From positions 3,286,001 to 3,350,000 of the forward strand of contig NZ_CP102173.1 in the NCBI RefSeq assembly GCF_024584515.1: DNA of 64,000 nt, given 5' to 3'. Source of the DNA: Aeromicrobium wangtongii (GTDB lineage Bacteria > Actinomycetota > Actinomycetes > Propionibacteriales > Nocardioidaceae). Made by a program: the position numbers and the translations under genes. This document shows, piece after piece, positions 28,299-39,051 of the stretch (the first letter of the stretch is position 1; every line of letters starts with the position of its first letter). The notes beneath the pieces were generated by a model. That model had not been told where the DNA came from. It searched no databases and saw only the letters and a list, made by a program, of their open reading frames with translations.

Positions 28299-29738
<1,440 letters not shown>

Positions 29739-29751
29739 TTCGTCGGTCGGG

Positions 29752-30264
29752 TCAGGCGATGAGCTGGAACAGCGCGCAGTCCTGCCACCGGCCCGCGATG
29801 CGCAGGTAGTCCGGGGCCATGCCGTAGCGCACGAAGCCGGCGCGTTCGAGGACCTTCTGGGAGCCGGTGTTGTGCGTCAGCGTCTCGCCCTGCACCCGGT
29901 GCAGGTCCAGCTCCCCGAACGCCACCTGCACGAGCGAGCGCAGCGCGGCCGTGGCGATCCCGCGACCCTGCGCGTCCGCGGAGACCCAGTAGCCGACCGA
30001 ACCGGACTGCAAGGCGCCACGGATGATGCTGCTCAACCCGATGCGACCGACCAGGCGCCCGTCGTCTTCGAGGATGACGCACGGATGGGACGTGCCGTCG
30101 GCGTGACCCTCCAGCGCGGTGCGCGCCGCCGCGAGCTGACCCTCAGTGGTGAACCAGCTGTCCGCCCGCACCGGCTCCCACGGCTGGAGATGATCGCGGT
30201 TGCGGCGGTGGAGCTCTGTCAGGGCAGGGACGTCGTCAAGGGCGAGCAGACGGATCGAGGGCAC
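29752..30264 (-). CDS. GNAT acetyltransferase, RimJ/RimL type
   Basis: 170 aa. Motif A of the acetyl-CoA site is SADAQGRGIATAALRSL (about residues 95-111), with the RimJ/L hallmark LDLHRVQGETLTHNTGSQKVLERAGF (~118-143) and a final W/C-rich strand. It probably N-acetylates a protein terminus or a small amine such as an antibiotic; the target is unknown. Start GTG 30264 has CACCAT 6 nt upstream. It lies 12 nt downstream of rraA on the same strand and is likely co-transcribed with it. Confidence 0.86.
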   Translation of the reverse strand: MPSIRLLALDDVPALTELHRRNRDHLQPWEPVRADSWFTTEGQLAAARTALEGHADGTSHPCVILEDDGRLVGRIGLSSIIRGALQSGSVGYWVSADAQGRGIATAALRSLVQVAFGELDLHRVQGETLTHNTGSQKVLERAGFVRYGMAPDYLRIAGRWQDCALFQLIA

Positions 30265-30834: not shown

Positions 30835-32742
30835 ATGACGCTCAGCGACGAACTCCGTATGTCCCTCGACGGCAAGTGGCGCCATGTGCGGGAGCAGTCC
30901 CGCAAGGAGCTGGCCGAACTCGACCTCGCCTATGACCACGACCTGACGCTCGACGAGGCGCGGGCGCGCGTGCTGGAGCAGATGAAGAAGCTGGTGCCGA
31001 CCGGCATCCCGGCCGCAGGCTTCAAGGTCTCCAGCGGAGGCACCGGCGATCCGGGCATGGCGGTGACGGGCATCGAGATGCTGGCGCAGTTCGACCTGTC
31101 GCTCATGGTCAAGGCCGGCGTCCAGTGGGGGCTGTTCGGCGGGGCGATCGAGAACCTCGGCACCGCCGCACACCACGAGAAGTACATACCCGGCCTCATC
31201 AACCTGGACATCCTCGGCTGCTTCGCGATGACCGAGACGGGTCACGGCAGCGACGTCCAGAGCCTCGAGACGACCGCGACCTTCGACCCCGCGACGCAGG
31301 AGTTCGTCATCCACTCCCCGACGCCGTCGGCGCGCAAGGACTACATCGGCGGCGCCGCGGCACATGCCCGGGTCGCGGCCGTGTTCGCCCAGCTCATCAC
31401 CAAGGGTGAGGGCCACGGCGTGCACTGCTTCATCGTCCCGATCCGCGACGAGGACGGCAACGACCTGCCCGGCATCACGACCTCCGACGACGGGCACAAG
31501 GGCGGTCTCGGCGCGGTCGACAACGGGCGCATCGTGTTCGACCAGGTCCGCATCCCGCGCGAGAACCTGCTCAACAAGTACGGGCAGGTCGACGAGGGCG
31601 GCACGTACTCCTCCCCGATCGAGAGCTCGAACGCCCGCTTCTTCACGATGCTCGGCACGCTGATCCGCGGACGCATCAGCGTCGGCGGCGCGGCCAGCGC
31701 AGCCACCGAGGTCGCGCTGAGCATCGCCGGCCGCTACGCCCTCAAGCGGCGCCAGTTCGGCCCGGATGCCGAGCACGAGGTGCTGCTGATGGACTACCGG
31801 ATGCACCAGCGGCGCCTGCTGCCGCTGATCGCCAAGTCGTACGCCATGCGCTTCGCCCAGAACCAGCTCGTGGCCCGCATGGACCGGGTCCAGAGCTCGG
31901 AGGAGCCACCTCCCCCGCACCAGCAGCGCGAGCTGGAGAGCCGGGCCGCCGGCCTCAAGGCCGCCCAGACCTGGCACGCGACCAAGGCCATCCAGGAGGC
32001 CCGGGAGGCCTGCGGTGGCGCCGGCTACCTCGCCGAGAACCGCCTGACGACGCTGAAGGGCGACACGGACGTCTTCACGACGTTCGAGGGCGACAACCAC
32101 GTGCTGTTCCAGCTCGTGGCCAAGGAGCTGCTGACGTCGTACGCGCAGGAGGTCGGCGGCCTCGACCCGGTGGGCATGGTCCGGTTCGCCGCGAGCACGG
32201 TCGCCGACGTGGTCAAGGAGCGCACCGCCGCGTCCCAGCTCATCCAACGGCTCATCGACGCCCGCCCGGGCAACAGCGACGACGACCACGACCTGCTGGA
32301 CCGCGGCACCCAGCTCAACTTGTTCGAGGACCGCGAGCAGCACGTCCTGGAGACCGCCGCGCGACGCCTGCGCCGCGCCGGCAAGGACCCCGTCGAGGCC
32401 TTCGAGGTCTTCAACGCCGCGCAGGACCACGTCATCCGCGCCGGGCGCGTCCACATCGAGCGCATCGTCCTCGAGGCCTTCACCGCGGGCATCGCCCGGT
32501 GCGAGGACCCGGAGGCACAGGAGCTGCTGCGGGACGTCTGCTCGCTCTACGCGCTGTCCGCGATCGAGGAGGACCTGGCCTGGTTCATGGGCCACAACCG
32601 GTTGTCGGACACCCGCGCCAAGACCGTCACGGCCCTGATCAACGACCTGCTCGACAAGCTGCGGCCGCACACGCTGACGCTGATCGAGGGCTTCGGCGTG
32701 CCCGAGGAGACGCTCAACGCGGCGATGCTGCTGACCGAGTGA
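30835..32742 (+). CDS. Acyl-CoA dehydrogenase/oxidase-family flavoprotein, long form
   Basis: 635 aa, much longer than the ~390-aa acyl-CoA dehydrogenases and closer to acyl-CoA oxidases with an ACOX-type C-domain. FAMTETGHGSDVQSLETTA is the oxidase-type FAD/substrate segment, EACGGAGYLAENRL and FTTFEGDNHVLFQLVAKELL carry the catalytic glutamate region. Residues 430-635 are helical (ACOX-like). Expected to introduce the alpha,beta double bond into acyl-CoA using FAD; electron acceptor (O2 or ETF) uncertain. TACCGT (30823-30828) is 6 nt before ATG: leaderless. Confidence 0.88.
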   Translation: MTLSDELRMSLDGKWRHVREQSRKELAELDLAYDHDLTLDEARARVLEQMKKLVPTGIPAAGFKVSSGGTGDPGMAVTGIEMLAQFDLSLMVKAGVQWGLFGGAIENLGTAAHHEKYIPGLINLDILGCFAMTETGHGSDVQSLETTATFDPATQEFVIHSPTPSARKDYIGGAAAHARVAAVFAQLITKGEGHGVHCFIVPIRDEDGNDLPGITTSDDGHKGGLGAVDNGRIVFDQVRIPRENLLNKYGQVDEGGTYSSPIESSNARFFTMLGTLIRGRISVGGAASAATEVALSIAGRYALKRRQFGPDAEHEVLLMDYRMHQRRLLPLIAKSYAMRFAQNQLVARMDRVQSSEEPPPPHQQRELESRAAGLKAAQTWHATKAIQEAREACGGAGYLAENRLTTLKGDTDVFTTFEGDNHVLFQLVAKELLTSYAQEVGGLDPVGMVRFAASTVADVVKERTAASQLIQRLIDARPGNSDDDHDLLDRGTQLNLFEDREQHVLETAARRLRRAGKDPVEAFEVFNAAQDHVIRAGRVHIERIVLEAFTAGIARCEDPEAQELLRDVCSLYALSAIEEDLAWFMGHNRLSDTRAKTVTALINDLLDKLRPHTLTLIEGFGVPEETLNAAMLLTE

Positions 32743-32870
32743 AGCCGGTCGCACGACCACGTCACACCCCCGCTTGGGGCCACCTTGCGGCCTTGACGAT
32801 GTCTGGTTCACTGGGGAGCGCCGATAACAGCGGCCACCCACGATCCACCACCTCCAGGGGGAAACACACC

Positions 32871-33314
32871 ATGAAGAATCTCTTGCGCTCAGCGGCCATC
32901 GCCGTCGCGTCCACCGCTCTGGTCGCCGGAGGCGCCACGGCCGCCACGGCCCAGGGCTCGTCGCCCGCCGCCACCAGCGCGTCCAACGTCTCGACCACGG
33001 CGAACGTGTCCACCGCCGTCGCGCCGTACCCGATCGACTACAAGTCCAAGATCCGCGTCAAGAAGGTCGGCAAGAAGCTGACGTTCCGCTTCACGGCCCG
33101 CTACCGCGATGACGCCGGCCGCCCGGTCGGCATCCGCAAGGTGACGCTGCAGGTCCTCAAGAAGGGCAAGTGGCGGACGCAGAAGAACGTCAAGCTGAAC
33201 CGCAAGGGCACCGGCACGTACAAGCGCACCGACGGCAAGAAGCGCAAGTACCGCATGGTGATCAAGCCGACCAGCCTGTACCAGGGCGGTCGCACCGTCT
33301 CGGTCAAGATCTGA
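32871..33314 (+). CDS. Secreted lysine-rich protein, paralogue 1 of 3, unknown function
   Basis: 147 aa. Signal peptide (MKNLLRSAAIAVASTALVAG, cleavage after ATAQ near 28), a Ser/Thr/Ala linker, and a compact C-terminal beta-rich domain about residues 45-147: IRVKKVGKKLTFRFTARY, VGIRKVTLQVLKKGKWRTQK, KRTDGKKRKYRMVIKP. The domain is extremely basic and resembles Ig-like surface modules. Two paralogues follow directly. AGGGGGAA precedes the ATG and a perfect terminator follows, so it is monocistronic. Possibly a cell-surface or polyanion-binding protein (inference). Confidence 0.8.
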   Translation: MKNLLRSAAIAVASTALVAGGATAATAQGSSPAATSASNVSTTANVSTAVAPYPIDYKSKIRVKKVGKKLTFRFTARYRDDAGRPVGIRKVTLQVLKKGKWRTQKNVKLNRKGTGTYKRTDGKKRKYRMVIKPTSLYQGGRTVSVKI

Positions 33315-33331
33315 CCTCGTAGCACCCGCGA

Positions 33332-33367
33332 GACCGGCCCCCGACCCGTATGGGTCGGGGGCCGGTC
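33332..33367 (+). terminator. Perfect terminator after paralogue 1
   Basis: 16-bp perfect stem, arms 33332-33347 (GACCGGCCCCCGACCC) and 33352-33367, loop gtat, followed by CCTTT. The same stem, slightly diverged, follows paralogue 2. Confidence 0.88.
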
Positions 33368-33454
33368 CCTTTGGTTGAGACACTGTGTTGCGACTCAGGG
33401 ACGATCTGCTTGAATGTCGCCACGAATCCAACACCATCCAGGGGGAAACACCAC

Positions 33455-34171
33455 ATGCGAGCTCTGTTGCGCGCAGCGGCCGTCGCCGTTGCATCCACCG
33501 CCCTTGTCGCGGGCACCACGACGATGGCCTCCGCTGCGCCGGGTGACACCGCCACGGTGACCACCGCGGTCATCCAGCCCGTTGCGCTGAGCGGTTTCAA
33601 GAACTCCACGTCGACCTTCGTCCCCGGCACCTTCGCATATGCCGCGCCGGGCTCGACGTCCACTCCGTACGGCCTCAAGGCCAATGTCAACGTCAACGGC
33701 CGGCTGGTGGCTGCGGGCGTTCGCATCAACTCGAACGGCTTCTACTACGAGCGCGCATGGGGCGCCGGTGCCGTCACGCTGACCAACTTCACCCTGTCCG
33801 GGTACGACTCGCGTCCGGCCCCGCACCGTGGCGCCTACACCGACCGTCCGGTGGCGGGGGCGTCCAACGCCGTCCAGATCCGTTACGGCGTCGAGTACCG
33901 CTCGGGCCTCCAGGTGCGCAAGAAGGGCAAGAAGCTCACCTTCAAGATCAAGGCCCGCTACGTCGACAGCCGCGGCAAGAACGTCGGCATCCGCAAGGCG
34001 ACCATCCAGGTCAAGAAGGGCAGCAAGTGGAAGACCCTCAAGAAGGTCAACCTCAAGAAGAACGGCACCAAGACGTTCACCCGCAAGGACGGCAAGAAGC
34101 GCTACTACCGCCTGGTCATCAAGACCACCAGCGTGTACGAAGGCGGGCACACCAAGGGTATGAAGATCTGA
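33455..34171 (+). CDS. Secreted lysine-rich protein, paralogue 2 of 3, unknown function
   Basis: 238 aa. Signal peptide MRALLRAAAVAVASTALVAG with cleavage near residue 28. An additional N-terminal beta module (about 35-130: FKNSTSTFVPGTFAYAAPG, VNGRLVAAGVRINSNGFYYE) precedes the shared basic domain (about 140-238: LQVRKKGKKLTFKIKARYVD, VGIRKATIQVKKGSKWKTLK, KRYYRLVIKTTSVYEGG), which is clearly homologous to paralogue 1. Leader and ribosome binding site (AGGGGGAAAC) are almost identical to those of paralogue 1. Own terminator downstream. Function unknown. Confidence 0.8.
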   Translation: MRALLRAAAVAVASTALVAGTTTMASAAPGDTATVTTAVIQPVALSGFKNSTSTFVPGTFAYAAPGSTSTPYGLKANVNVNGRLVAAGVRINSNGFYYERAWGAGAVTLTNFTLSGYDSRPAPHRGAYTDRPVAGASNAVQIRYGVEYRSGLQVRKKGKKLTFKIKARYVDSRGKNVGIRKATIQVKKGSKWKTLKKVNLKKNGTKTFTRKDGKKRYYRLVIKTTSVYEGGHTKGMKI

Positions 34172-34191
34172 CCTGAACCGACCGCTCCTCG

Positions 34192-34227
34192 CGCCGGCCC
34201 CTGACCCCTGCGGGTCGGGGGCCGGCG
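34192..34227 (+). terminator. Terminator after paralogue 2
   Basis: 16-bp stem, arms 34192-34207 (CGCCGGCCCCTGACCC) and 34212-34227, one mismatch/GU, 4-nt loop. Nearly the same sequence as the terminator at 33332, supporting duplication of whole gene-plus-terminator units. Confidence 0.85.
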
Positions 34228-34317
34228 TCGTCCTGGACTGCGCGACAGCCCGTCTTGCGGCGCCGACCAGGTGTGATTCACTAGGGCCCAATTCATCACG
34301 ATCCGGGGGAACAACGT

Positions 34318-35076
34318 ATGCGTACATCCACTCTTGCCCGCGTCGGCGCCGTCATCACGGCCTCGGCGCTTGCTCTCAGCCTCGGCGCAGGGCCGGTCTC
34401 GGCCGCCGAGACCAGCACCGCCGCCGCGGCCGCCGCTCCCAGTGCGGCGCCGTCGGCCACCTCGTTCGGCACGACCTCGAACGTCGACGCAGCCGGTGTC
34501 ATCACGGCGCTGCGGCTCGGCTCGGGCGTCATCACCGACCGCGCCACCACCCAGTTCCTCGGCAACGTCGCCGGCCAGGCGCCGAGCAACAACGTCCAGA
34601 CCCAGGTCACGATCAACGGACGGGTCAAGGGACGGGTCATCCTGTACCCCGGCCAGGGCAATGGCGGCGTCGAGATCCCGCGTGGCTGGGGCTCCGGCAA
34701 GGTCCAGCTCGGCCCGACGTTCTTCTCCGACGGGACGGTCGACCAGAACCGCAGCAACGTCTTCTACGCCCGCAAGCACGTGACGTCGAAGGCCACGTAC
34801 CCGCTGAAGATCCACCGTCGCAACAGCAAGGTGACCTTCAAGGTCTACGGCGTCAAGATCATCAACCCGTCGAACGGCAAGTACCAGTCGGTCAAGCGGG
34901 TCAAGCTGCAGCGCTCCAAGGGCGGGAAGTGGCGCACCGTCAAGAACATCAAGCTGAACTCCAAGGGCAACGGCTCGTACAAGATCACGAACCGGACCAA
35001 GTACCGCTACCGCCTGTACATCACGCGCTCGGCGACGCAGGAGAAGTTCTCGACCCTGAAGACGGGCAAGATCTGA
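34318..35076 (+). CDS. Secreted lysine-rich protein, paralogue 3 of 3, unknown function
   Basis: 252 aa. Signal peptide MRTSTLARVGAVITASALAL, cleavage near 31 (VSAAE). An N-terminal module (about 45-150: TTQFLGNVAGQAPSNNVQT, TINGRVKGRVILYPG, IPRGWGSGKVQLGPTFFSD) corresponds to that of paralogue 2. The C-terminal domain (about 158-252: YPLKIHRRNSKVTFKVYGVK, VKRVKLQRSKGGKWRTVK, KYRYRLYITRSATQEK) is the most diverged copy of the shared fold. GGGGGAA precedes the ATG. It is followed by its own terminator and then an unrelated convergent MarR gene. Confidence 0.8.
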   Translation: MRTSTLARVGAVITASALALSLGAGPVSAAETSTAAAAAAPSAAPSATSFGTTSNVDAAGVITALRLGSGVITDRATTQFLGNVAGQAPSNNVQTQVTINGRVKGRVILYPGQGNGGVEIPRGWGSGKVQLGPTFFSDGTVDQNRSNVFYARKHVTSKATYPLKIHRRNSKVTFKVYGVKIINPSNGKYQSVKRVKLQRSKGGKWRTVKNIKLNSKGNGSYKITNRTKYRYRLYITRSATQEKFSTLKTGKI

Positions 35077-35097
35077 TCCGCAGCACTGCCTGATCGC

Positions 35098-35128
35098 AGG
35101 GCCCTCGTCCTCTCGGGACGGGGGCCCT
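35098..35128 (+). terminator. Terminator after paralogue 3
   Basis: Stem AGGGCCCTCGTCC (35098-35110) with GGGACGGGGGCCCT (35115-35128), one mismatch, loop tctc. Confidence 0.8.
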
Positions 35129-35143
35129 CGTGGTTGGCGGTGC

Positions 35144-35201
35144 GGACGGATCTTTCTGCCTTTCGGTAGCTCCGGCAGCGCGAACGTCGAAAGATGCGTC
35201 C
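35144..35201. repeat. Intergenic inverted repeat before the MarR stop
   Basis: Arms GGACGGATCTTTC (35144-35156) and GAAAGATGCGTCC (35189-35201), one mismatch, 32-nt loop. It lies between the convergent ends of paralogue 3 and the MarR gene, so it may terminate the minus-strand transcript. It resembles in design the hairpins at 4756 and 9371. Confidence 0.55.
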
Positions 35202-35210
35202 CCCGCGGGG

Positions 35211-35714
35211 TCAGGCGAAGTCGCCGGCGGCGGAGCGCAGGTGGCGCAGGAGCTCGTAGGCCTGGTCCTGCTGCTCGGGGGTCATCCCCGGCACGGCGAA
35301 GTCGATCGCGTTGATCGCCGCGGTGGCCTCGGCCATCACCCGCCGACCCTCCGGGGTCAGCTCGGCGAAGGTCCGGCGGCGGTCCTTCTCGTCCGCGACC
35401 CGGCGCACCAGACCCTGCGACTCCAACCGGTCCATCGCATTGGTCACCGAGGTCGGGTGGACCATGAGCCGCTCCCCGATCTTGCTCAGCGGCAGCTGAC
35501 CGGTCGCGCTGAACGACAGCAGCACCAGGACCTCGAAACGGGCGAAGGTGATGCCGAGGGGCTTGAGCACGGCGTCGAGCTCGGAGCTGATGAGCTGCTG
35601 GACGCGCATGATCGAGGTCGCGAACCGCATCGAGGTGGGATCACCGATGCGCTTGGACCAGATCTCCCCGGCTCGCTCGATCGGGTCGAACTCGAGGCGG
35701 GGTGCGTCGGACAT
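35211..35714 (-). CDS. MarR-family transcriptional regulator
   Basis: 167 aa. The winged-helix core covers about residues 50-125: GITFARFEVLVLLSFSATG, LPLSKIGERLMVHPTSVTNA (recognition helix), RRVADEKDRRRTFAELTPEG (wing). Divergent from icmF across 100 nt containing an inverted repeat, so it probably controls icmF in response to an acyl-CoA or aromatic ligand, as PaaX/FerC-like MarR proteins do (inference). TACGAT (35721-35726) lies 6 nt before the ATG and no ribosome binding site is seen: leaderless. Confidence 0.9.
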   Translation of the reverse strand: MSDAPRLEFDPIERAGEIWSKRIGDPTSMRFATSIMRVQQLISSELDAVLKPLGITFARFEVLVLLSFSATGQLPLSKIGERLMVHPTSVTNAMDRLESQGLVRRVADEKDRRRTFAELTPEGRRVMAEATAAINAIDFAVPGMTPEQQDQAYELLRHLRSAAGDFA

Positions 35715-35750
35715 GCGCCCATCGTAGGGGGCGGATGCCGAGGGGTGGCA

Positions 35751-35787
35751 ATTAGTTGGACATGCGACTATTTTAGATCCAAGTAAT
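35751..35787. promoter_or_regulatory. Inverted repeat in the MarR-icmF divergent promoter
   Basis: ATTAGTTGG (35751-35759) and CCAAGTAAT (35779-35787) pair at 8 of 9 positions around a 19-nt AT-rich spacer. This is unusually AT-rich for the window and is the best operator/promoter candidate for icmF. Confidence 0.45.
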
Positions 35788-35814
35788 TTGCTGCCGCCGA
35801 CGTCGGAGGACCTC

Positions 35815-38800
35815 ATGCCCCAGAACGACCTGCACGTCCCCGTCAACCCGGTGCGCTTCGTGACCGCGTCCGCCCTGTTCGACGGACATGACGCCTCGAT
35901 CAACATCATGCGGCGCATCTTCCAGTCGCAGGGCGCCGAGGTCATCCACCTGGGCCACAACCGATCGGTCAAGGAGGTCGTCGACGCCGCGATCGAGGAG
36001 GACGTCCAGGGCATCGCTGTCTCGTCCTACCAGGGCGGCCACGTCGAGTACTTCGAGTACCTCGTCGAGTCGCTGCGCGAGCAGGGCGCCGGCCACATCC
36101 ACGTCGTCGGTGGTGGCGGCGGCGTCATCGTCCCCGAGGAGATCACCCGGCTGCGCGGCAGCGGCGTGACGATCTTCTCTCCCGAGGACGGCCAGCGACT
36201 GGGCCTGGTCGGCATGATCAACTCGGTCGTCGCGGACTGCGACTTCGACCTGACCTCGCTGGGCGAGCTGGACCTGGATGCTGTCGTCGCCGGCGACCGC
36301 GCCGCGATCGCCCGTGCCATCACCCACGCCGAGGCAGGCTCGCTGACCGACGCCCAGCTCGAGCGCATCCGCGCTGCCGCCGCGACCCACTCCTCCCCCG
36401 TGCTCGGCATCACCGGCACCGGCGGATCAGGCAAGTCGTCGCTGACCGATGAGCTGGTGCGCCGCTTCCGTGTCGACCAGCAGGACAAGCTGCGCATCGC
36501 GGTCATCGCGGTCGACCCCACCCGCCGGCGCGGCGGCGGCGCCCTGCTCGGCGACCGCATCCGGATGAACTCCCTCGACGGTGAGCGTGCCTACTTCCGC
36601 TCGTTGGCGACCCGCGGCTCGCACGAGCTGCCCGAGACGCTCGCCGATGTCATCGACGTCATCAAGGCGGCCGGATTCGACCTGGTCATCGTCGAGACGC
36701 CCGGCATCGGGCAGGGCGATGCGGCGATCGTCCCGTTCGTGGACTCCTCGATGTACGTCATGACGCCGGAGTTCGGCGCCGCCTCGCAGCTGGAGAAGAT
36801 CGACATGCTCGACTTCGCCGACACCGTCGCGATCAACAAGTTCGAGCGCCGCGGGGCCAAGGACGCCCTGCGGGACGTCGGCCGGCAGATGGTGCGCAAC
36901 CGCGAGGCCTTCGGCAAGAAGCCCGAGGACATGCCGATCTTCGGCACCTCGGCCGCGACGTTCAACGACGACGGTGTCACCGCGCTGTACCAGCACCTGC
37001 GCGACACCCTCGGCGAGCAGGGGCTGCCGGTCGAGGACGGAATCCTGCCGCACGTCGACGTGCGCTTCTCCAGCGGCATCCAGCAGGTCGTGCCGACCGA
37101 TCGCGTCCGCTACCTGGCCGAGATCACCGAGACGATCCGCGGGTTCCACGCCGAGACCGAACGGCTGGCCGACGCCGCCGACCGCGCCCAGCGTCTCGAG
37201 CTCACCGCGGCCGAGCTCGCCGACGCCCAGCTCGACGGCGCGAGCGTCGACGAGCTGCTGACCGCCGCCAGGAAGGCCGTCCCGCACGAGATCTCCGACC
37301 AGATCGCAGCGTGGCCGGCCGTCGTCGAGTCGTACTCCGGCGACGAGCAGGTCGTGAAGGTCAGGGACAGGGAGATCCACACCCAGCTGACCCGCGAGAC
37401 GCTCTCGGGCAACAAGGTCCCCCGCGTCTCGCTGCCGAAGATGACCGGCCACGGCGAGCTCGTGCGCTTCTGGCGCCGCGAGAACCTGCCGGGCTACTTC
37501 CCGTACACGGCCGGCGTGTTCCCGTTCAAGCGGGACGGCGAGGATCCCGCCCGCATGTTCGCCGGCGAGGGCGACCCGTTCCGCACCAACCGCCGCTTCA
37601 AGTTGCTGTCCGAGGACGGCGACGCGACCCGCCTGTCGACGGCCTTCGACTCGGTGACGCTGTACGGCCGCGATCCCGACCCGCGTCCGGACGTCTACGG
37701 CAAGGTCGGCACGTCCGGCGTGTCCGTCGCGACGCTCGAGGACATGCACGCCCTGTACGACGGCTTCGACCTCGTGTCGCCGTCGACCTCGGTCTCGATG
37801 ACGATCAACGGGCCCGCGCCGACCGTGCTGGCGTTCTTCCTCAACACGGTCATCGACCAGCAGGTCGACAAGTTCCGCGAGAAGGAGGGCCGCGAGCCGT
37901 CCGAGACCGAGTACGCCGAGCTGCGCTCCTACGCCCTGCAGAACGTGCGCGGCACCGTGCAGGCCGACATCCTCAAGGAGGACCAGGGCCAGAACACCTG
38001 CCTGTTCTCCACCGAGTTCAGCCTGCGGATGATGGGTGACATCCAGCAGTACTTCATCGACGAGGGCGTGCGGAACTTCTACTCCGTCAGCATCTCGGGC
38101 TATCACATCGCCGAGGCCGGGGCGAACCCCATCAGCCAGCTGGCGTTCACGCTGTCCAACGGCTTCACGTACGTCGAGTCGTACCTCGCCCGTGGCATGG
38201 ACATCGACGACTTCGCACCGAACCTGTCGTTCTTCTTCTCCAACGGCATGGATCCGGAGTACTCGGTGCTGGGCCGCGTCGCCCGCCGCATCTGGGCGAT
38301 CGCGATGAAGGAGAAGTACGGCGCGAACGACCGCTCGCAGAAGCTGAAGTACCACGTGCAGACCTCCGGTCGCTCCCTGCACGCGCAGGAGATGGACTTC
38401 AACGACATCCGCACGACGCTGCAGGCACTCATCGCGATCTACGACAACGCCAACAGCCTGCACACCAATGCGTACGACGAGGCCGTCACGACCCCGTCGC
38501 AGGAGTCGGTGCGCCGCGCGCTGGCGATCCAGCTGATCATCAACCGCGAGTGGGGCCTGGCGATGAACGAGAACCCGTTGCAGGGCTCGTACATCATCGA
38601 CGAGCTGACCGACTTGGTCGAGAAGGCCGTGCTCGCCGAGTTCGACGCGATCAACGAGCGCGGCGGTGTGCTGGGCGCGATGGAGACCGGCTACCAGCGC
38701 GGACGCATCCAGGACGAGTCGATGCTCTACGAGCACAAGAAGCATGACGGGTCGCTGCCGATCATCGGCGTCAACACGTTCCGCCGCCCGGTCTCCGAGG

Positions 38801-39051
38801 GCGAGGAGGAGCACACCGTCGAGCTCGCCCGGGCGACCGAGACCGAGAAGGAGTCCCAGCTGGCCCGGGTCCGCGCCTTCCACGACGCGCACTCGAGCGA
38901 GGCGGCCGAGGCACTGGATCGCCTGCGGCTCGCGGCGATCAACCACGAGAACGTCTTCGCGGTCCTGATGGAGGCGGCGCGGGTCTGCTCGCTGCAGCAG
39001 GTCACCGAGGCATTCTTCGAGGTCGGCGGGCAGTACCGGCGCAACGTGTGA
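35815..39051 (+). CDS. icmF: Fused isobutyryl-CoA mutase with G-protein chaperone
   Basis: 1078 aa, the IcmF architecture: N-terminal B12-binding domain (about 12-145, with FDGHDASINIMRR and VVGGGGGVIVPEE), a MeaI/ArgK-type GTPase chaperone (about 170-480, P-loop GITGTGGSGKSS at 198-209), then the catalytic mutase barrel (about 540-1078, with TGVFPFKRDGEDPARMF, HYQTS-like YHVQTSGRSLHAQEMDFNDI). Interconverts isobutyryl-CoA and n-butyryl-CoA (some also pivalyl/isovaleryl) using adenosylcobalamin. CGGAGG precedes ATG 35815. It is the clear B12 consumer in a window that also carries cobT and a B12-riboswitch importer. Confidence 0.95.
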   Translation: MPQNDLHVPVNPVRFVTASALFDGHDASINIMRRIFQSQGAEVIHLGHNRSVKEVVDAAIEEDVQGIAVSSYQGGHVEYFEYLVESLREQGAGHIHVVGGGGGVIVPEEITRLRGSGVTIFSPEDGQRLGLVGMINSVVADCDFDLTSLGELDLDAVVAGDRAAIARAITHAEAGSLTDAQLERIRAAAATHSSPVLGITGTGGSGKSSLTDELVRRFRVDQQDKLRIAVIAVDPTRRRGGGALLGDRIRMNSLDGERAYFRSLATRGSHELPETLADVIDVIKAAGFDLVIVETPGIGQGDAAIVPFVDSSMYVMTPEFGAASQLEKIDMLDFADTVAINKFERRGAKDALRDVGRQMVRNREAFGKKPEDMPIFGTSAATFNDDGVTALYQHLRDTLGEQGLPVEDGILPHVDVRFSSGIQQVVPTDRVRYLAEITETIRGFHAETERLADAADRAQRLELTAAELADAQLDGASVDELLTAARKAVPHEISDQIAAWPAVVESYSGDEQVVKVRDREIHTQLTRETLSGNKVPRVSLPKMTGHGELVRFWRRENLPGYFPYTAGVFPFKRDGEDPARMFAGEGDPFRTNRRFKLLSEDGDATRLSTAFDSVTLYGRDPDPRPDVYGKVGTSGVSVATLEDMHALYDGFDLVSPSTSVSMTINGPAPTVLAFFLNTVIDQQVDKFREKEGREPSETEYAELRSYALQNVRGTVQADILKEDQGQNTCLFSTEFSLRMMGDIQQYFIDEGVRNFYSVSISGYHIAEAGANPISQLAFTLSNGFTYVESYLARGMDIDDFAPNLSFFFSNGMDPEYSVLGRVARRIWAIAMKEKYGANDRSQKLKYHVQTSGRSLHAQEMDFNDIRTTLQALIAIYDNANSLHTNAYDEAVTTPSQESVRRALAIQLIINREWGLAMNENPLQGSYIIDELTDLVEKAVLAEFDAINERGGVLGAMETGYQRGRIQDESMLYEHKKHDGSLPIIGVNTFRRPVSEGEEEHTVELARATETEKESQLARVRAFHDAHSSEAAEALDRLRLAAINHENVFAVLMEAARVCSLQQVTEAFFEVGGQYRRNV

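Follow-up and report, generated by a model that had tools for sequence, protein, structure and literature searches.

The 64,000-nt stretch of DNA analysed here (hereafter the window) carries three adjacent forward-strand genes, A, B and C, which are paralogous. They belong to an undescribed family of small actinobacterial proteins that are exported and consist of one or two Ig/FnIII-like domains. In most of the same-genus species that have it, the family sits between an acyl-CoA dehydrogenase-like gene and a marR gene, and its sequences change much more quickly than those of the genes on either side. As a tentative interpretation, somewhat short of probable, we propose that A, B and C are exported, may be held at the envelope by their charge and may serve in adhesion or as a coat.

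Gene A (32871..33314, 147 aa) encodes a signal peptide, a linker and a C-terminal module (C-module) only; B (33455..34171, 238 aa) and C (34318..35076, 252 aa) each encode a signal peptide, an N-terminal module (N-module) and a C-module. The three C-modules (A, 33033..33311; B, 33890..34168; C, 34780..35073) are 93–98 aa long, with a net charge of +27, +27 and +26 and a Lys content of 20%, 25% and 18%, respectively; that of A is Ig-like. The three signal-peptide reading frames and their common Lys-rich C-terminal domain had been picked out in a sequence-only reading of this DNA, and both observations were confirmed. The N-modules of B (33569..33904) and C (34477..34794), whose bounds are approximate, measure ∼100–110 aa, and A has the linker in their place. 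According to a hydropathy heuristic and visual inspection, all three proteins begin with a Sec-like signal composed of a basic N-terminus, a hydrophobic stretch and an AxA-type end. Across the family, a signal-like start was found in 38 of 39 members using a hydropathy rule, with one start chosen where several passed; the 39th member (L066) is truncated by a contig end. Reading of the A, B and C translations revealed neither a lipobox Cys nor an LPXTG motif nor a membrane anchor at the C-terminus; as read, the proteins would belong to neither the sortase-anchored nor the lipid-anchored class.

Each of the three genes has a Shine-Dalgarno (SD)-like leader and a downstream hairpin, and they look like separate transcription units that would give separate transcripts. 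The leader TCCAGGGGGAA, running up to the ATG, is present at A (32853..32873) and B (33437..33457), and these sites are the only two matches to TCCRGGGGGAA-N4-7-ATG in the 3.69-Mb genome. The leader of C, TCCGGGGGAA (34302..34311), is similar, so that the near-identity of leaders claimed earlier for all three genes applies to A and B. Terminator-like hairpins lacking a long T-run follow A (33332..33367), B (34192..34227) and C (35099..35127). Those of A and B are 88% identical over 32 nt, as the sequence-only reading had said of the first two, and that of C resembles them without being near-identical. With up to three mismatches allowed, the A/B hairpin was matched in the genome at the A and B sites only, each on both strands because the hairpin is palindromic, and by eye a strong hairpin lies downstream of most of the 38 aligned members. 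Promoter-like pairs precede all three genes, TTGCGG-N16-TTCACT before A (32785..32812) and C (34255..34282), and TTGCGA-N16-TTGAAT before B (33388..33415). The pattern TTGCGR-N16-TTSAMT has four genome matches, these three included, and its reversed control has none, a rarity that is suggestive because the pattern was derived post hoc from the A, B and C sites themselves. By eye, the pair is absent from some C orthologues. Within the 5 kb surrounding the fourth match, the filter printed no long GC3-rich open reading frame, and a regulon sharing one promoter was rejected on this ground. Rfam gave no match across 32400–36000, so a non-coding RNA reading is unsupported.

The arrangement had been described as a single tandem triplication, which the phylogeny of the C-modules contradicts. 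Thirty-eight sequences were aligned, 3 from the window and 35 from 23 same-genus loci, with L066 (genome G036) omitted. In the midpoint-rooted tree, the A sequences, from 5 genomes, cluster with the B sequences, from 3, with support of 100/97, and the five C orthologues form a cluster (99/99) inside the other main clade (99/98). C is thus an old paralogue, and A and B stem from a later duplication that carried leader and terminator with it. At the DNA level, a 128-nt repeat occurs in three copies at 70–71% identity, and A and B further share a 228-nt repeat (72%), a 98-nt repeat covering leader and signal (74%) and the 32-nt terminator repeat noted above. C-module identity is 56% between A and B and 27% between B and C. 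The proposal that whole units were duplicated therefore stands for A and B, given these repeats and the uniqueness of their leader and hairpin in the genome, and falls for C, which was not part of the same event. B and C do carry an additional N-terminal module, as noted before, but this is better read as a loss in A: two-module proteins account for 33 of the 38 sequences in the alignment and are present in other genera too, and A most likely lost its N-module rather than B and C gaining theirs. The C-modules of the two main clades are homologous, since a held-out profile of one clade found 21/21 C-modules of the other at 38–80 bits, where the top score among 1000 shuffles was 10 bits. Between the N-modules of B and C the sequence link is weak (14.7 bits for B, E 0.0012, vs 9.6 for the best shuffle; the two orthologues of B scored 6.4 and 7.3); predicted fold and domain order agree between the two proteins.

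The upstream flank of the three genes is the acyl-CoA dehydrogenase-like gene (30838..32742, forward strand; NCBIfam matches below equivalog cut-offs, start not fixed), and the downstream flank is a gene for a MarR-family regulator (35211..35714, reverse strand, start not fixed). Divergent from marR lies a gene for a fused isobutyryl-CoA mutase/GTPase, IcmF (35797–39051; NCBIfam NF045497, 1929 bits). Further upstream are genes for an NADP-specific glutamate dehydrogenase (28332–29738, forward strand) and an acetyltransferase-like protein (29752–30264, reverse strand; best NCBIfam match below cut-off). A search with B found matches at E≤0.001 in 26 of the 49 genomes examined from the same genus and none in the other 23. 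One of the 26, G043 (L070), is doubtful: the match (E 2e-4) covers residues 2–87 only, a profile search finds no member there, and it probably reflects the signal peptide. Profile searches detected a member in 24 of the 25 fetched loci (L046–L070). A comparison of copy number among relatives, which the sequence-only reading had suggested, gave three copies in 3 genomes, two in 8 and one in 14 within the stretches read, window included and further weak matches (e.g. one in G036 on another contig) omitted, so that the family occurs in 1–3 copies at a fixed locus and is absent in some relatives. The acyl-CoA dehydrogenase-like gene and marR were each present in 23 of the 25 fetched stretches, the misses being L070 and one stretch each bounded by a contig end (L066, L067), and icmF was present in 17. 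Among 15 genomes taken as family-less (14 of the 23 unmatched ones plus G043), the dehydrogenase gene was recovered in 14. In five of these 14, marR and icmF follow within 1.5 kb (in L115 with an intervening open reading frame); of the remaining stretches behind the dehydrogenase gene, two reach the contig end and seven carry other genes.

In a family-level search, 98 of 294 genomes matched the family alignment at E≤0.001. Matches outside the genus were mostly weak or covered the signal peptide or C-module only. Strong full-length matches outside the genus came from the genera numbered g5, g6 and g21. A separate search of genome contigs gave one named relative, Nocardioides sediminis, with a match over residues 180–234 of B. 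Of 394 genomes drawn from across the class, 40 were matched by the profile of the C-module (E≤1e-4) and 9 by that of the N-module, 8 of the latter belonging to the same genus. An origin from phages, plasmids or other mobile elements was considered and rejected: tblastn of B against phages and plasmids gave no match, PHROGs matches were at chance level, and viral fold matches were to generic FnIII/Ig-type or tail proteins. Two same-genus relatives have an operator-like perfect palindrome of 18 nt, ATGGTTC-N4-GAACCAT, directly before the orthologue, with marR close by (L052:8928-8945 and L054:9095-9112), and a half-match occurs at L067:1055. It is missing from the window, and control by the neighbouring MarR was rejected as a candidate.

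Evolutionary rates were estimated as pairwise dN/dS between orthologues by the Nei-Gojobori method, excluding the first 35 alignment columns. The values were 0.49–0.80 for C (10 pairs), 0.73–0.89 for B (3 pairs) and 0.61–1.59 for A (10 pairs). For the dehydrogenase, MarR and IcmF genes of the same species, 12 window-vs-relative pairs (one with a partial IcmF) gave 0.07–0.19 at similar dS. Although dS is probably underestimated in this GC-rich genome, the flanking genes control for this in part. Mean dN/dS of the N-module was 0.57 for C and 0.78 for B, and that of the C-module 0.81 for C, 0.90 for B and 0.92 for A. The C-module is therefore no slower than the N-module among close orthologues. 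This argues against a receptor-binding site that is tightly conserved, and agrees with either weak constraint or a loose role based on charge. The high ratios themselves may reflect weak constraint rather than selection.

Positive charge was retained despite this turnover. The C-module is net-positive in 38/38 rows, with a median of +26 per 100 aa and a range of +4 to +37, and its net charge is +22 to +28 across 13 orthologues. The pI of the mature protein exceeds 9 in 36 of the 38 rows; the exceptions are two acidic members from G013 (pI 5.2 and 5.6). The charge may nevertheless be characteristic of this type of domain in general, since it is also high in C-module relatives of other architectures (median +17.9 for 29 such domains, with overlapping ranges). 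In a charge-compensation test, the ratio of observed to independently expected values was 0.57 for A, 0.37 for B, 0.83 for C and 3.4 for all 38 rows, so that over the full set the conservation of net charge does not exceed chance. All of these ratios weigh little because the pairs are non-independent and the ratios come without significance values. Conservation is strongest at W, K, G, YR and T, residues that look structural.

Structure prediction, likewise suggested by the sequence-only reading, returned two Ig/FnIII-like sandwiches for both B and C. The model of C has a mean pLDDT of 85.0 and two beta-sandwich domains scoring 88–98 per ten-residue block from residue 61; that of B (mean 83.1) also has two such domains and is less even, at 63–98 from residue 31. 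At the level of predicted fold, the proteins would thus belong to the Ig-like/FnIII beta-sandwich superfamily. Structure comparison mostly returned Ig or FnIII domains whose functions are unrelated, with a best Z of 7.5 for C and of 8.7 for B, and the low TM-scores over both domains point to a generic Ig/FnIII arrangement that indicates no particular family and no function. The earlier statement that the proteins have no known function held up in Pfam, NCBIfam and PHROGs, where no curated family was matched. In Pfam, no window protein reached a cut-off, the best matches being DUF7025 for B (E 0.0059) and Big_14 (PF20251) for C (E 0.014; 15.8 bits vs a gathering score of 27), and Big_14 was matched at E≤0.1 by 3 of the 38 members (best E 0.0083). 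Nor was any family reached by the window proteins in NCBIfam at its curated cut-offs or in PHROGs at E <0.001. Sequence searches for relatives of solved structure gave none that is credible, the family-alignment matches falling mostly in signal peptides or low-score stretches, and a search of an open full-text library found no paper on such a family. Big_14, Big_3_5 (PF16640), Big_1 (PF02369) and fn3 (PF00041) share the predicted beta-sandwich fold, and the latter three are matched by proteins that contain C-module relatives, whereas the window proteins fall below every curated cut-off. This is an undescribed family within the ordinary exported bacterial Ig-like proteins.

Relatives of the C-module also occur in other contexts. 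Among ten relatives scanned, it is fused with M15 peptidase, GH18, LTD, VWA, PD40 or fn3 domains. The same genome encodes an M15-type carboxypeptidase-like protein with a C-module-like domain beside Big_3_5 (L162:1506-3065, minus strand). Stand-alone two-module proteins were found at nine loci in other genera (L180-L188). These have a cationic C-module in 9/9 cases and an N-module match at E≤0.05 in 7/9, but they occupy loci different from that of the window family, with one member per stretch read. At L183, L184 and L186-L188, a two-module relative in another genus likewise keeps one locus, adjoining a gene whose beginning looks like that of an MgtE-type transporter, with a presumably TatB-like gene nearby.

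How might such proteins act? In the reading we prefer, they would exit the cell by the Sec route, and the strongly cationic C-module would bind anionic wall polymers and so keep the protein on or near the envelope. The N-module, missing in A, would point outward. Of the roles raised in the sequence-only reading, a surface adhesin or a binder of polyanions would be compatible with the evidence. Residues of a surface coat or adhesin would turn over fast under outside pressure from neighbours, phages and surfaces; alternatively, fast turnover would follow if little beyond fold and charge is constrained. A precedent comes from the Lactobacillus S-layer proteins SA, CbsA and SlpA, which are likewise exported two-domain proteins with a cationic domain that binds the wall (PMC2571106). 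The likeness is drawn from export, domain architecture and charge; wall binding is proven there, whereas for A, B and C it is the charge that was computed, and nothing seen here points to a regular surface layer. The GW-domain proteins of Listeria exemplify the non-covalent wall retention proposed for A, B and C, but they differ in having another domain and a peptidoglycan receptor (PMC4944223). Since the receptor of SlpA was reported not to be teichoic acid (PMC2571106) and GW proteins bind peptidoglycan (PMC4944223), the receptor class is uncertain even for proven anchors.

The same charge and export evidence would suit proteins that are secreted freely and bind polyanions such as extracellular DNA, exopolysaccharide or polyphosphate, acting as biofilm-matrix glue without being held by their own wall. 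The lack of a visible membrane or sortase anchor agrees with this, but no matrix gene lies beside the locus, which is flanked by metabolic and regulatory genes that remain next to one another in some family-less genomes, and we regard it as unlikely. The C-module type is also found joined to exported proteins such as M15 peptidase and GH18, which raises another idea, that A, B and C are stand-alone copies of an Ig-like spacer of exported hydrolases, assisting enzymes or wall assembly in trans. This appears improbable, given that the two-module stand-alone form exists in several genera and that no hydrolase genes were recognised adjoining the family in the loci read.

High charge, fast evolution and tandem copies could also describe cationic proteins directed at competitors, with the charge attacking foreign membranes and the fast evolution reflecting an arms race. 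No specific evidence for an antimicrobial role emerged: the proteins have folded double Ig-like domains and no toxin domain, no immunity-like gene was seen adjoining the copies, and a match to a bacteriocin model was at chance level (E 0.22), making this very improbable. Finally, dN/dS near 0.5–1 and the lack of a match in 23 of the 49 genomes of the genus are what one would see in a weakly constrained family with little function under selection, whose retention and duplication would be mostly due to chance. Yet frames are open in 38/38 rows, leaders and hairpins are mostly kept, and both the positive charge and the two-module form recur in other genera, so that we think this quite unlikely. 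The envelope-held reading can be taken further, to an Ig-like surface family anchored electrostatically to the wall and selected mainly for net charge and fold, in which nearly any surface residue may change and tandem paralogues diversify the outward module as a coat against phages or competitors. We offer this fuller version as a speculation that is itself rather doubtful.

Should the surface reading prove wrong, A, B and C would simply be another group of hypothetical Ig-like proteins with export signals. If it is right, a family without a curated model is present in about half of the searched species of the genus and in a few other genera. What stands out most is that it evolves fast while staying at one locus, and the family would provide a small natural test of how far a folded surface protein drifts when hardly anything beyond charge and fold is kept.
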